Shown in pieces: positions 3,594 through 33,170 of a DNA stretch of 39,780 bases. The first letter of the stretch is position 1, and each line of letters begins with the position of its first letter. Where the stretch lies: NCBI GenBank assembly GCA_947446025.1, contig CANFEY010000045.1:1-39780 (forward strand). Reading direction: 5' to 3'. The position numbers and the translations under genes were made by a program. Below the pieces are notes generated by a model, which saw nothing but the letters and a program-made list of their open reading frames with translations, had not been told where the DNA came from and searched no databases. Source of the stretch: Bryobacterales bacterium. Its GTDB lineage: Bacteria > Acidobacteriota > Terriglobia > Bryobacterales > Bryobacteraceae.

Positions 3594-4942
3594 CGGGAAT
3601 GCTGAAACAGGCGATCCAATTCGGATGCGTGGCGGCGATGTTCGCGGCCCTGCTGTTGCCTGCGGCCCAAAAGAAGCCCGCGCAGAAGAAGGCGGCTCCT
3701 GCAAAGAAAGCTGCCCCTGCAAAAGCCGCTAAGGCCAAATCTACTCCAGCACCAAGAATCAACGCGGACGAATTTGTCGCCCAGAGCCTGCAGCAAGGGC
3801 TGCAGATCCCAGTGGACAATCCAGCGGCATTGGTGCCGTTCTTCGAACAGCTCTACCGACATCAGAAGGGTGAATTGCCGGGGCCGGTGCGCGTGTTGCA
3901 ATACGGCGATTCGCACACCGCGGCGGATGAGTTAAGCGGCGAGTTGCGCGCGCTCTTTCAAGCCAGCTTCGGCAATGGCGGCGCGGGATTCTCCTTCGCC
4001 GGCAAGCCGTGGCGCACCTATCGGCGGCGGGATGTAAAGACGGGATCGAGCGACGGATGGCACACCGATGGTCTGGTGGCGAGATCCGGTGACGGCGTCT
4101 ACGGACTGGGCGGCGTGAGTATGACGGCGACCTCGGCGCGCGAGTCCCTGTATATCGAGGCGGACGCCAGCGAGTTTGAGTTGTTCTACTACCAGCAGCC
4201 TGGCGGTGGTTCGATGCAACTGTATGACGCGGGTGTGCCGCTGGACTTGATTTCAACGGGTGGGGAAGCGCGGCCGGGCTACTATCACGTGGCGGCGGCT
4301 CCGGGTCCGCACCGCTTCGAAGTGGAGACGCTGGGCCGCGATCCCGTGCGGCTCTTCGGTTGGGTGGCGGAGAACCCCACGGGGATCACCTACGAGACGT
4401 TCGGCATCAACGGCGCTTCGGCGACGACGGTGGGGCAGTGGGAGCCCGCCACGTTGCGCGACAATCTGGAACACCGCAACCCCGACTTGATCGTGCTGGC
4501 GTATGGCACCAACGAAGCGGGCTCCGCGCAATGGACGCTGGAAAAATATCAGACGATGTTCATGGGGTTGCTGCGGCAATTCCGCGAAGCTTCTCCCACG
4601 GCTTCGATTCTTGTATTGGGTCCGCCGGATCGCGCGCAACGCGTGCGGCGGCAGTGGCAGACCATGGCCCGCATCGGCATCATTGCGGAAGCGCAACGCC
4701 GGGCCGCTCTGCTGATGGGTTGCGCCTTCCTTGACCTGCGCGCGGAGATGGGTGGGGCGGGCGCGATGCAGCAGTGGGTGCGCGCGGGCGAGGCTCAGGC
4801 GGATCACGTTCACTTCACCGCGTCCGGCTACCGCTTGTTGGGCGACGCAATTTACACCGACATCATGGGTCAATACGGTGCGTTTCTGAAGGCCCGCGCC
4901 TCCATCATGGCTACACGCGGGGCAGGTGTTGTAACGCCGTGA
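3590..4942 (+). CDS. SGNH/GDSL-type hydrolase, exported (second paralogue)
   Basis: A 450-residue paralogue of the preceding protein. It has an N-terminal hydrophobic segment followed by a Lys/Ala/Pro-rich linker (about residues 24-52), which could span the peptidoglycan. The SGNH core has Ser108 in QYGDSHTAAD, Asn308 in AYGTNEAG, and Asp405/His408 in DHVHFTASGY. It shares the unusual insertion between blocks I and III with its neighbour, including a GINGASATT motif matching GVNGASVTL in the first copy, so the two probably arose by tandem duplication. The start is GTG at 3590 overlapping the upstream TGA; an internal ATG at 3599 is the alternative. The overlap implies translational coupling. 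It may work with the MBOAT protein in O-acylation of an extracellular polymer. Confidence 0.85.
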   Translation: MTGMLKQAIQFGCVAAMFAALLLPAAQKKPAQKKAAPAKKAAPAKAAKAKSTPAPRINADEFVAQSLQQGLQIPVDNPAALVPFFEQLYRHQKGELPGPVRVLQYGDSHTAADELSGELRALFQASFGNGGAGFSFAGKPWRTYRRRDVKTGSSDGWHTDGLVARSGDGVYGLGGVSMTATSARESLYIEADASEFELFYYQQPGGGSMQLYDAGVPLDLISTGGEARPGYYHVAAAPGPHRFEVETLGRDPVRLFGWVAENPTGITYETFGINGASATTVGQWEPATLRDNLEHRNPDLIVLAYGTNEAGSAQWTLEKYQTMFMGLLRQFREASPTASILVLGPPDRAQRVRRQWQTMARIGIIAEAQRRAALLMGCAFLDLRAEMGGAGAMQQWVRAGEAQADHVHFTASGYRLLGDAIYTDIMGQYGAFLKARASIMATRGAGVVTP

Positions 4943-4945
4943 ACT

Positions 4946-5086
4946 ATGGAATCCTCAAACGACTACTATTGCCCACAGTGCCAGAAGCCTGTTCCCGATC
5001 CACTGGTGTGCGGGGATTGCACGGCGGTAATTTGCCGTATGTGCGGGTCGCCGCTCGAACTGGTGGACGAACTCGGCGTGGGCTAG
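4946..5086 (+). CDS. Small zinc-ribbon protein, 46 residues
   Basis: A short frame from ATG 4946 to TAG 5084-5086 encodes 46 residues with six cysteines arranged as three CxxC pairs: Cys9/12, Cys22/25 and Cys30/33. This pattern fits a small zinc-ribbon protein that binds one zinc ion through four of the six cysteines. It begins 3 bases after the second SGNH hydrolase stop, and its last 46 bases overlap the proposed start of the SH3 lipoprotein in another frame, so it sits inside the operon. No other domain is visible. Its function is unknown; a cytoplasmic regulatory or assembly role is only a guess. The regular cysteine spacing is the main reason to believe it is real. Confidence 0.7.
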   Translation: MESSNDYYCPQCQKPVPDPLVCGDCTAVICRMCGSPLELVDELGVG

Positions 5087-6054
5087 CGGCGCTGCTGCTG
5101 GTCTTGACCGGCTGCGGATTTCAGGGCCAGCAGAAAGCCATCGGGTACGCCTATACCGGACCTTCCGCGCTCAACTTGCGCAATGACCTGGGCCTGCGCG
5201 CCACCACCACGGCCACAGTGGAGCACGGTGAGCGCCTGGAAATCCTCGAAACCAAACGCCGCTTCGTCCGGGTGCGGACCAAGCAGGGCTCGGAAGGTTG
5301 GACCGATTCCGCCTACCTGCTCACGCAGTCGCAAATGGACGATCTGACGCGCTTGGCGGAGCGTGCCCAGGGGCTGCCATCGCAGGGCGTGGGCACGGTG
5401 TTCGACACGCTGAACGTCCACACCGCGGCCAGCCGGACCTCCGCCAGCTTCGCCCAAATCGAAGAGGGCGAGAACATCGACGTGGTGGCGCATCGCGTGG
5501 CGGAGCGGGAGATGCCGGGTGGCGAGCAGTCGTCCGAAGACTGGTTCCTGGTGCGTACGAAGGAAAACCGGGCGGGCTGGGTGTTGTCGCGCATGGTGCT
5601 AATGTCCATCCCTGACGAGATTGCACAGTACGCCAACGGGCACTACATCACGGCGTATCATGCGTTGAATCCTGAACGGACCAGCTGGCTGTGGACCACC
5701 TCCGCCCATGCGCGCCAGCCGTTCGATTTCGACGGGTTGCGGGTTTTTGTGTTCAACGAACGCAAGAAATCCTACGAGACTGTCTTCACCGAGCGGAACC
5801 TGCGCGGCTACTACCCTGTTGAGCAGAGCGGCGATTCCTTCTCAGCTGTCATCGAAGAGAAGGACGGCAGCCTGGCCAAGCGCACCTATTCCTTCAATGG
5901 CTCGAAGGTGAAATTACTATCGAAGGAGCCGTACCAGGCACCGCCGGCGTTGCCGGAAGTAGGCGTGCCCAAGACGTTCGACACCACGGCTCCCAAGGAC
6001 GCCAACTGGGCGGACCGCGCGCGCGCATTCGCCGAATGGTGGTTCGGGATCTAG
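5041..6054 (+). CDS. SH3-domain lipoprotein
   Basis: From GTG 5041 this is a 337-residue lipoprotein. The signal peptide has an arginine-rich n-region, the core LAALLLVLTG and a lipobox LTGC with the lipidated Cys at residue 25. Two bacterial SH3-like domains follow, at about residues 33-93 (containing ALNLRNDLG) and 108-187 (containing TLNVHTAASRTS), each of the type that binds cell-wall peptides or glycans. The C-terminal 140 residues are beta-rich and not recognised. The frame is open further upstream, but the upstream part overlaps real genes in other frames and lacks a signal, so GTG 5041 was chosen; no ribosome site is evident. As last gene of the acylation cluster it may anchor or couple the system to peptidoglycan. 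The stop lies inside the shared palindrome at 6052-6074. Confidence 0.8.
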   Translation: MRVAARTGGRTRRGLAALLLVLTGCGFQGQQKAIGYAYTGPSALNLRNDLGLRATTTATVEHGERLEILETKRRFVRVRTKQGSEGWTDSAYLLTQSQMDDLTRLAERAQGLPSQGVGTVFDTLNVHTAASRTSASFAQIEEGENIDVVAHRVAEREMPGGEQSSEDWFLVRTKENRAGWVLSRMVLMSIPDEIAQYANGHYITAYHALNPERTSWLWTTSAHARQPFDFDGLRVFVFNERKKSYETVFTERNLRGYYPVEQSGDSFSAVIEEKDGSLAKRTYSFNGSKVKLLSKEPYQAPPALPEVGVPKTFDTTAPKDANWADRARAFAEWWFGI

Positions 6055-6074
6055 ATGGTGTCTGACACCATTTA
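6052..6074. repeat. 23-bp palindrome carrying both convergent stop codons (copy 1)
   Basis: The core ATGGTGTCTGACACCAT at 6055-6071 is a perfect inverted repeat around one central base. The flanking triplets are the stop codons of the two converging genes: TAG (6052-6054) for the lipoprotein and TTA (TAA on the minus strand, 6072-6074) for trpS. The second copy at 31478-31500 differs by one base. A transcript from either strand could fold into a stem of about 8 bp, so a bidirectional terminator is plausible, although no T-tract follows. Confidence 0.85.
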
Positions 6075-7058
6075 AGGCGTGTACAGTCCCATGGCGCGTT
6101 TCACCTTCTGGACCGTGTCCCGGGCGGCCGGCGTGACGCGTTCCGCACCCTCGGCCAGGACCTTTGCGACGTAGCCGGAGTCCGCGGTGATCTCGCGGTA
6201 GCGCTGCTGCATGGGTTCCAACGCAGCCACCACGGCCTCCGCCACGCGCTTCTTCAGGTCGCCGTAGCGCAGGCCGGTGAAGTCGTTGCGGATGCTGTCG
6301 TCAGAGGCTTCGGTGAAGGCCTGATAGATCGACAATAAATTGCTCACCCCTGGACCCATGGTATCGAGGTCAACCGCCGGATTCGAGTCCGTGGTCGCGC
6401 GCATGAGCTTCTTGCGGATGCGGTCGGGCGGGTCCAGCAAACTGATCGCGTGACCCTCGCCGGTGGTCGACTTGCTCATCTTCTTATCCGGATCATCCAG
6501 GCCCATAATGCGCGCGCCGTGTGTAGGCAGGCGCGTCTCCGGCATGGTGAACGTCTCTCCATACAACGAATTGAAGCGCTGCGCGATGTCGCGTGCCAGC
6601 TCCAGATGCTGCGTTTGATCGTCGCCCACCGGCACCACGTGCGCCTGATAGAGCAGAATGTCCGCCGCCATCAGAACAGGATATTGCAGCAGCCCGTCGC
6701 TGATAGACTCCTGCTCTTCGGTCTTGGCCTTGTACTGCGTCATGCGTTCCAGCCAGCCGATGGGGGTGACGCAGGTGAGCATCCACGCTAGCTCCGCGTG
6801 CTCCGGTACGCTCGATTGCACGACTAACGAAGAATGCTTGGGGTCGATCCCGAGAGCCAGCAGCATCCCGGCCAGTTCCAGAATCTTGCCGCGCAGTTCC
6901 GCCGGGTCCTGATAAATGGTGATCGCATGCAGGTCCACGATGCAGTAGATGCTATCGTAGTCATACTGGATCTTCGCCCAGTTCTTCAGCGCCCCCAGAT
7001 AATTTCCGATGTGTGGACTGCCTGTGGGTTGAATGCCGGAGAGAACACGCTTCTTCAT
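6072..7058 (-). CDS. trpS: Tryptophan--tRNA ligase
   Basis: A 328-residue class I aminoacyl-tRNA synthetase that charges tRNA-Trp in the cytoplasm. The HIGH-type signature is PHIGN at residues 15-19 and the second signature is a perfect KMSKS at 193-197. GIQPTG near the N-terminus, the VGDDQTQHLELARDIA segment and the length are all typical of bacterial TrpS. The ATG at 7058 fits the family start. The gene is monocistronic as far as can be seen: it diverges from the RlmD-type methyltransferase gene and converges on the lipoprotein gene, sharing the palindrome that supplies its stop codon. Nothing suggests a T-box or trp leader upstream, where only about 25 bases separate it from the divergent gene. 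Confidence 0.97.
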   Translation of the reverse strand: MKKRVLSGIQPTGSPHIGNYLGALKNWAKIQYDYDSIYCIVDLHAITIYQDPAELRGKILELAGMLLALGIDPKHSSLVVQSSVPEHAELAWMLTCVTPIGWLERMTQYKAKTEEQESISDGLLQYPVLMAADILLYQAHVVPVGDDQTQHLELARDIAQRFNSLYGETFTMPETRLPTHGARIMGLDDPDKKMSKSTTGEGHAISLLDPPDRIRKKLMRATTDSNPAVDLDTMGPGVSNLLSIYQAFTEASDDSIRNDFTGLRYGDLKKRVAEAVVAALEPMQQRYREITADSGYVAKVLAEGAERVTPAARDTVQKVKRAMGLYTP

Positions 7059-30057: not shown

Positions 30058-30480
30058 TTAGGCAGGCTCTTCCTGGATCTCCCACGTCGCTACGATCTCC
30101 ACGGTGGGCCGCAGGGAAGAGATGACGCCGCAGTACTTGTCGGTGGAGAGCTGGACGGCGTGCTCGACGGCTCTCTCTTCCACGCCCCGGCCGCGGACGA
30201 TATGCTTGACCTCCATGCGCTGGTAGCTGCGGGGGTGCTCCTCGCGGCGGGTGGCTCGGACTTCCACTCGATACGACGTCACTTGCTGGCGCTTTTTCTT
30301 GAGTACAGAGATGACGTCGGCTCCCGTGCACCCGGCGAGCGCGATTTGCACCAGCTCCAACGGGCCGGAAGCGGCGGAGCGTTGCCCATCGATGTCGATC
30401 ACCTGCGCGTGGCCGCTGGGCGTGGTGGCCACGAAGAAATCGTCGCCGGCCCAGTCGGCGGAGGCGTAGTCGTTCTTCAT
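30058..30480 (-). CDS. OsmC-family protein
   Basis: From ATG 30480 this encodes 140 residues of the OsmC/Ohr superfamily, enzymes that reduce organic hydroperoxides through two cysteines. The N-terminal strand region is WAGDDFFVATTPSG, the first conserved cysteine lies in LVQIALAGCTGADVISVLKK, and the second in STDKYCGVISSL. The longer open frame back to 30549 runs into the divergent dehydratase gene and adds unrelated sequence. This group, with the LAGCTGxDV motif, is the YhfA-like branch rather than Ohr. Its location back to back with a peroxiredoxin gene suggests a shared role in peroxide defence, but the genes are convergent and not co-transcribed. Confidence 0.88.
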   Translation of the reverse strand: MKNDYASADWAGDDFFVATTPSGHAQVIDIDGQRSAASGPLELVQIALAGCTGADVISVLKKKRQQVTSYRVEVRATRREEHPRSYQRMEVKHIVRGRGVEERAVEHAVQLSTDKYCGVISSLRPTVEIVATWEIQEEPA

Positions 30481-30520
30481 GACGGCATCATACCCCATGA
30501 GCCGGGCACACTGGAGAAAC

Positions 30521-31480
30521 GTGGCGCAATCGATCAGTTTGGCCGACATTCAGTTCGCGCGGCAGCGCGTGACGCCTTGCGTGCGGCGGACTCCGCAGGT
30601 GATCAGCGCGACGCTGAGCGAGGCGCTGAAGACCAACGTCTATTGCAAGCTGGAACTGTTCCAGAAGACAGGCTCGTTCAAGGTGCGCGGCGTGTTCAAC
30701 AAGATCCTCAGCCTGGCACCGGAGATGCGCAGCACGGGTGTGGTAGCGGTAAGCGGAGGGAATCACGGGCTGGCGGTGGCGTATGCGGCTCGGGCGCTCG
30801 ATTTGAAGGCGCTGATCCTGATGCCGGAGGGGACCCCGACCAACTACATCGAAGCCGCGCGCGGTTACGAGGCCGACATTGAGTTCGCGGCCACGGCATC
30901 CGACGCGTTCTCCCAAGTAGAAGACCTAGAGCGCGCCGGGTGGCACTTCATTCATCCGTTCGACGATGCGGACGTGATCGCGGGGCAGGGCACGATGGGG
31001 CTGGAGATTCTGGAAGACACTCCGCATGTCACCGACGTCATCGTGAGCATCGGCGGCGGCGGGATGATGACGGGCGTGGCGACGGCGATCAAGACGCTGA
31101 AGCCTGCGGTTCGCATCTGGGGCGTGGAGACGGAAGGCGCGGATTGCATGGCGCAGTCGCTGGCGGTGGGCGAGATTGTCGCGCTGAGCGGCGCTACTTC
31201 GGTGGCGCGGGCCCTGGGGGCGTCGGCTCCTTCGGAGGTGACCTTCGCGGCGGCGCAGCAGTTGCTGCAGGAAGTCGTGGTCGTCTCTGATGAAGAGGCT
31301 CTGGATTCGGTGCGCTTTTTGCTGGAGCGGATGAAGATTCTGGCGGAGCCTGCGGGCGCGTGTCCGTTGGCGGCTGCGGACCGGCTGCGGCGGCAGTTCA
31401 CGCCGGAACGGCACGTGGTGTTGCTGCTGAGCGGCGGAAATATTCCGCTGGATCAGCTGCTGCCGTTCGAGCCGCTTTAA
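30521..31480 (+). CDS. PLP-dependent threonine/serine dehydratase
   Basis: A 319-residue fold-type II PLP enzyme that deaminates threonine or serine to the 2-oxo acid. KLELFQKTGSFKVRGVFNKI contains the PLP lysine, SGGNHGLAVAYAAR the substrate loop, SIGGGGMMTGVATAIK the phosphate cup, and LLSGGN closes the fold. It lacks the C-terminal ACT regulatory domains of biosynthetic IlvA, so it resembles catabolic dehydratases or serine racemases. The frame is open to 30479, but GTG 30521 has a GGAG four bases before it and a natural N-terminus; ATG 30497 is the alternative. Its TAA stop is the left triplet of the palindrome at 31478-31500. Confidence 0.9.
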   Translation: MAQSISLADIQFARQRVTPCVRRTPQVISATLSEALKTNVYCKLELFQKTGSFKVRGVFNKILSLAPEMRSTGVVAVSGGNHGLAVAYAARALDLKALILMPEGTPTNYIEAARGYEADIEFAATASDAFSQVEDLERAGWHFIHPFDDADVIAGQGTMGLEILEDTPHVTDVIVSIGGGGMMTGVATAIKTLKPAVRIWGVETEGADCMAQSLAVGEIVALSGATSVARALGASAPSEVTFAAAQQLLQEVVVVSDEEALDSVRFLLERMKILAEPAGACPLAAADRLRRQFTPERHVVLLLSGGNIPLDQLLPFEPL

Positions 31481-31497
31481 ATGGTGTCTGACACCAT

Positions 31498-31500
<3 letters not shown>
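31478..31500. repeat. 23-bp palindrome carrying both convergent stop codons (copy 2)
   Basis: The same element as at 6052-6074, here as a perfect inverted repeat over all 23 bases, with arms TAAATGGTGTC and GACACCATTTA around one T. The outer triplets are the TAA of the dehydratase gene and the TAA (minus strand) of rpoD. It separates two convergent genes with no other intergenic sequence at all. Confidence 0.88.
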
Positions 31501-33138
<1,638 letters not shown>

Positions 33139-33170
33139 GCTTTGCTTTGACGCGATCACTTCAATCTAAG

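Follow-up and report, generated by a model that had tools for sequence, protein, structure and literature searches.

Among the described systems closest to the repeat considered here, REP sequences are reported to occur mainly between unidirectional and convergent ORFs, and the ends of GTAG REPs often supply the stop codon TAG to flanking ORFs (Di Nocera et al. 2013, PMC3733652). The same study describes TIRtrons and their TIRYT transposases, accompanied by moderately abundant TIR repeats, in organisms that include Acidobacteria. In the classification of Quentin et al. (2018, PMC6006769), 20 of 26 TIRYTs were assigned to TnpA subclass 2.1, and REP-like sequences are given there as not found for subclasses 2.1 and 2.3.

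The locus analysed here lies in a stretch of 39,780 nucleotides (the window) of a Bryobacterales genome, G000, which is a draft assembly of 4.43 Mb in 120 contigs with home-made gene calls. An earlier note on this DNA had described two 23-bp copies of a palindrome, one base apart, at convergent junctions, with the outer triplets of each serving as the stop codons of the facing genes; both points are borne out by the sequence at 6052-6074 and 31478-31500, where four ORFs end exactly. At the first copy (A1, 6052..6074; TAGATGGTGTCTGACACCATTTA) a plus-strand gene (4774..6054) for a 426-aa protein with a bacterial SH3 domain (PF08239, E 2.2e-13) ends in the left triplet, TAG, and a minus-strand gene (6072..7058) for a 328-aa class I tRNA synthetase of the W/Y family (PF00579, E 2.2e-71) ends in the right one, TTA, which reads TAA on its strand. 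The left arm of A1 carries one substitution, AG in place of AA. The second copy (A2, 31478..31500; TAAATGGTGTCTGACACCATTTA) is a perfect palindrome between the converging ends of a plus-strand gene (30479..31480) for a 333-aa PLP-dependent enzyme (PF00291, E 1.2e-76) and a minus-strand gene (31498..33159) for a 553-aa RpoD-like sigma-70 factor with sigma-70 regions 1.2, 2, 3 and 4 (Pfam). The repeated unit proper is a 21-bp palindrome of the form AAATGG...CCATTT (AAATGGTGTCTGACACCATTT), hereafter class A, the outer T and A of the 23-bp form being flanking bases. When the window was searched with the 17-mer at the heart of this unit, allowing up to 3 mismatches, 4 matches were recovered, namely the same two sites on both strands each; 0.11 were expected from shuffles, and none of 100 shuffled windows attained 4.

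Genome-wide, the 17-mer occurs in 36 exact copies in G000 and a reversed control sequence in none. It is absent from all 60 relatives searched, 22 of which belong to the same genus and 45 of which have a completeness of 90% or more and a contamination of 5% or less. The inner 13-mer (GGTGTCTGACACC) has 61 exact copies in G000, which a grouping by eye of their surroundings divides into 36 of class A, about 15 asymmetric ones preceded by GGAGTTRT (or GTTAC) and followed by GATC, GAAC or GAATT, and about 10 with other arms. Within the genus, 20 copies of the 13-mer are present in the nearest relative (G014), most of those inspected having arms of their own; three further members carry a single copy each, and the other 18 carry none. 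From this distribution, class A looks like a recent expansion specific to one lineage. One 13-mer copy of G000 (L141, on contig C87) is embedded in 80 bases identical to those around a copy in genome G002 (L239, on C80), both near a contig end; the two genomes are about 75% identical at rpoD, unlike this segment, and a mis-binned contig or a recent transfer is possible. A search of a genome contig database found the 17-mer in 84 stretches, a set composed of apparent chance matches and of longer palindromes with genome-specific arms (rows L031-L110 inspected). In unrelated genomes the 17-mer or 13-mer core is found inside such longer palindromes (L033, L041, L053, L096, L101, L108, L113 and others).

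To relate the copies to genes, we considered gene 3' ends facing a copy at a distance of at most 150 bp, the genes being delimited with the help of codon usage learned from the fetched sequence. The 36 class A copies have 53 such facing ends, 41 of which are flush, i.e. the stop stands directly before ATGG (or after CCAT on the other strand), as TAA in 39 cases and TAG in 2; a further 5 of the 53 stop at a TGA within the core and 7 elsewhere. Facing ends are present on both sides of 20 copies, on one side of 13 and on neither side of 3, and both stops are flush in 12. That this is an ordinary dispersed repeat whose placement in stop codons is coincidental might be argued from the 16 of 36 copies that have no gene end on one or both sides; it is contradicted by the count of 41 in 53 facing ends in one register versus just 3 of the 22 ends that face the remaining 25 13-mers, and by the excess of convergent placements, at 20 of 36 copies versus 6 of the 35 junctions in the window (6 convergent, including the two with the element, 5 divergent and 24 tandem; binomial p 2e-7, with one window and home-made gene calls as the baseline). 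Coincidence thus appears exceedingly improbable. The placement and stop match for which the earlier note had set a genome-wide test therefore extend to the family, as does its statement that both frames are ended neatly, for which a sharper mechanism can now be given: a stop codon is split after its T, and the AA/TT of the element remakes TAA. A further class A copy (L009:1501-1517) lies within a long open frame of 606 aa, where the 21 bp amount to whole codons and the frame stays open.

The outer AA...TT of the unit is whole in 34 of the 36 copies, and the bases flanking it are frequent rather than fixed (left T in 28/36, right A in 33/36). These flanks read YT|AR in 21 of 36 copies and T|A in 25 of 36; in 359 kb fetched from the same genome, with overlapping occurrences included, YTAR accounts for 0.25% of positions and TA for 1.9%. 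When the 21-mer is removed in silico, a stop remains at the same place in 34 of the 41 flush ends (16 TAA, 15 TAG and 3 TGA) and the other 7 are left without one; in 10 copies the removal yields two convergent stops with a 4-bp overlap (YTAR). Set against 3 in 16, this excision count is not an independent test, since it partly follows from the YT|AR bias. The one shared register is the stronger point, as selection against damage would tolerate any site downstream of a stop.

Starting from what is directly observed, namely the copies, the single register they share, the bias in their flanks and an element-free site in G014 (described below), we consider it moderately probable that class A is a 21-bp palindromic, non-autonomous REP-like element that spread by insertion at YT^AR, remaking TAA on both strands. 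The element, AAATGGTGTC-T-GACACCATTT, would spread in this lineage by insertion with YT^AR as the preferred target, and on a GC-rich chromosome it is stop codons that would tolerate such sites, chiefly the 4-bp convergent-stop overlaps CTAG, TTAA, CTAA and TTAG. The T to the left of the cut would combine with the AA of the element as TAA, and its TT with the A to the right of the cut as TTA, i.e. TAA on the other strand; both frames would thus keep their stop at the same codon because the element starts with AA and ends with TT. The placement at convergent ends would then reflect target preference together with selection against damage, and not a terminator function. The same bases can be parsed as a miniature element of an IS630/mariner-like DDE transposase, TA-AATGG...CCATT-TA, with a 19-bp unit and a 2-bp TA duplication; inserted at CTAG, it would yield a product identical to that of the REP-like model (+21 bp), and TA indeed stands on both sides of many class A copies. 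For a duplication, however, the loss of the left T in 8 of 36 copies (with C in its place in 6) is unexpected when the remaining arm is whole in 34 of 36. Moreover, a 19-bp unit is shorter than DDE miniature elements are generally known to be, and the 13-bp core is the one that brackets a Y1 (HUH) transposase gene, which argues against a DDE enzyme and makes this parsing rather unlikely.

Insertion of a 21-bp element at split stops can be compared with the state of the same loci in G014, for which ten class A copies were examined, with neighbours contiguous there at 4 of the 10. A check of homologous junctions in relatives, as proposed earlier, revealed an element-free site at A1: G014 reads GATCTAGGGCG, 21 bases shorter, in which an overlapping CTAG carries both the plus- and the minus-strand stop, and both proteins stop at the same codon in G000 and G014. 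Another relative, G007, is likewise without the element at this locus. At C61:6352 the downstream gene ends at the same codon in both genomes, with CTA in G014 and TTA in G000; C15:54579 is an insertion relative to G014 with an untidy alignment, and the left flank of C28:53004 has no close alignment to G014. At A2, the G014 homology stops exactly at the two stop codons. Four other sites have their flanks on different G014 contigs, and the right flank of C15:38569 has no G014 match in the stretches searched. Of the 10 compared sites, 1 shows a clean gain of 21 bp at a pair of overlapping stops, the rest being untidy, tandem or rearranged. In the G014 counterpart of A2 (L176), the PLP-enzyme gene and rpoD are separated by an open frame that spans at most 225 codons, where G000 has only the element. 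The only class A copies without an intact AA...TT, A1 and C28:53004, have CTAG at the altered end, with the TAG stop of the relative kept. Read from the sequences, this retention of TAG is unpredicted by a simple insertion model.

The broken neighbourhoods raise the alternative of a rearrangement scar, whereby recombination between copies or the joining of breakpoints would have put one element between two gene ends. Homology ending at the stops of A2, with the extra G014 open frame in between, is in keeping with such a scar, as are the 5 of 9 scored element junctions that are non-neighbours in G014. Element-driven rearrangement accordingly looked strong at first: over all junction types the 5/9 compares with 12/55 control junctions broken (8 further unknown; Fisher p 0.048), in a scoring that left out C15:38569 and in which one control break (window 8242) falls at a G014 contig end. 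With tandem junctions left out the figures become 5/7 versus 5/17 (p 0.085), and among the scored convergent junctions 4/6 are broken with the element and 4/6 without it (1 further unknown). We withdrew the rearrangement reading because convergent control junctions without the element are broken at the same rate; with 4 of the 10 compared sites contiguous in G014 as well, a scar is very unlikely to be the origin of these placements.

Folded in silico as single-stranded DNA, A2 gives on either strand a hairpin with an 11-bp stem and a loop of 3 bases (z about -6); A1 gives a hairpin of 7 bp (z -3.85). This bears on the suggestion in the earlier note that the palindrome terminates transcription, which is left unsupported: the hairpin is present but the T-tract is missing, and neither the A1 nor the A2 junction shows a terminator-like site. 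The stable hairpin of A2 on both strands, along with the gene ends on both sides of 20 of 36 copies, might still speak for a selected bidirectional device that stops and terminates convergent genes, acting in transcription termination or at mRNA 3' ends. Against it stand the lack of a terminator-like site at these two junctions, the 3 of 36 copies that face no gene end, the absence of the element from the 60 relatives and the fact that a terminator needs no placement within a stop codon. We regard such a device as unlikely; target preference and protein-level neutrality would explain the placement, so that selection for a function is needless.

Two matches to the Y1_Tnp profile were found in G000, of which one lies above the cut-off (C21:44171-44863, 230 aa, E 8.5e-15). 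Its product has the motifs NHAH, WQ and YVEQNP, no second Pfam domain was found in it, and it matches the NCBIfam model for REP-associated tyrosine transposases with E 7.3e-19 and 68 bits, i.e. below the 80-bit cut-off. Inverted copies of AGTTCGGGAGTTGTGGTGTCTGACACCGATCT, with the same 13-bp core, bracket the gene; no class A copy is next to it, and the bracketing repeats have other arms. A G014 protein is 63% identical to this transposase over 219 residues, and inverted 13-mers, with other arms, surround its gene as well. The repeats at the C21 gene fold no better than shuffles (z -1.19 and -0.01; -0.67 for the G014 repeat), and this weak folding argues against the notion that they and class A simply have a hairpin in common outside the 13-bp core. 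The second Y1-like match (C43, E 8.9e-4, below the cut-off) was set aside as a candidate, GTC-N-GAC being absent from its fetched 6.5 kb. We infer from the shared core that the RAYT/TnpA-REP-like enzyme of C21 moves class A; an HUH transposase of this kind (TIRYT-type) would move the element as a single-stranded hairpin. The word mobile, used in the earlier note, thus fits the family, which is confined to G000 as far as the 60 relatives searched show, has an empty site in G014 and has a 13-bp core in common with the repeats of a RAYT-like gene.

A match to Y1_Tnp is also present in 32 of 37 other genomes, all of which were chosen for holding the 17-mer. GGTGTC-N-GACACC stands at 5 of 50 RAYT loci outside the genus, in 5 genomes (L224, L226, L229, L268 and L284), which is only suggestive in view of that choice of genomes. 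At the RAYT-like locus L226, from a Chromatiales MAG, five GGTGTC-N-GACACC lie within 3.3 kb, most of them with AATT arms. Three RAYT loci in other genomes (L227, L271 and L278) hold palindromes of the type GGGGTCTGACCCC. We tentatively raise the wider possibility that class A is an HUH-dependent miniature specialised for stops, whose AA...TT ends and YT^AR target would together render insertion silent for both convergent proteins and convert two overlapping stops to TAA-hairpin-TAA. The TIRYT / subclass 2.1 enzymes would thereby acquire a family of dispersed hairpins, with a GTC-N-GAC core found again in several phyla and genome-specific arms.

An element that remakes a stop on each side may spread without changing the neighbouring proteins. 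If the insertion model holds, a repeat would proliferate in a compact genome nearly free of cost, its ends repairing overlapping convergent stops, and the recent lineage-specific insertions with their empty counterparts would offer material for studying RAYT-type mobilisation of REP-like hairpins.

Of the described systems, TIRtrons/TIRYTs resemble the present one in that a RAYT-like Y1 HUH gene lies between inverted non-GTAG repeats, here and in G014, and in the dispersal of repeat copies, represented here by 61 13-mers, about 15 of which resemble the gene-flanking repeat while class A shares the core only. The published TIR motif is GGGGWSAS, whereas the core here has GGTGTCAG, one base off, and class A is a stand-alone palindrome whose arms differ from those at the transposase gene; in the portions of the published description drawn on here (PMC3733652, PMC6006769), a split-stop target is unmentioned. 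The motifs given for TnpA subclass 2.1 are NHVH, W[EQ] and Y[IV][EH]LNP with a C-terminal domain, compared with NHAH, WQ and YVEQNP in the C21 protein (PMC6006769). The acidobacterium Solibacter usitatus offers a further parallel in the repeats of its class 3 TnpA, about 600 dispersed hairpins found next to genes for HUH transposases (Quentin et al. 2018, PMC6006769); they differ in their foot, CnGA, and in the motifs of the enzyme, NHVH / W[TA] / YV..EQ, as against NHAH / WQ / YVEQNP.

With GTAG REPs and their RAYTs, class A shares the character of a short lineage-specific palindrome near gene 3' ends and at convergent junctions (Nunvar et al. 2010, PMC2817692; Di Nocera et al. 2013). Unlike them as described, it has no GTAG/GTGG head (GT[AG]G) at the hairpin foot, the flanks outside the 21-mer vary, and it remakes TAA on both sides, where REPs give TAG from one end. 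REPINs consist of two REPs in inverted orientation, whereas class A copies are single palindromes and well separated, the closest pair being 2.7 kb apart (on C61). What the two have in common is that REPINs, too, are regarded as miniature elements that RAYTs mobilise (Bertels and Rainey 2011, PMC3116915). In the open-licence literature, as covered by titles and abstract openings, neither this core nor a repeat restoring stops on both strands is described. Together these comparisons suggest that a stop-supplying repeat is known in principle, while its split-codon, two-strand version and this particular palindrome appear to be new.
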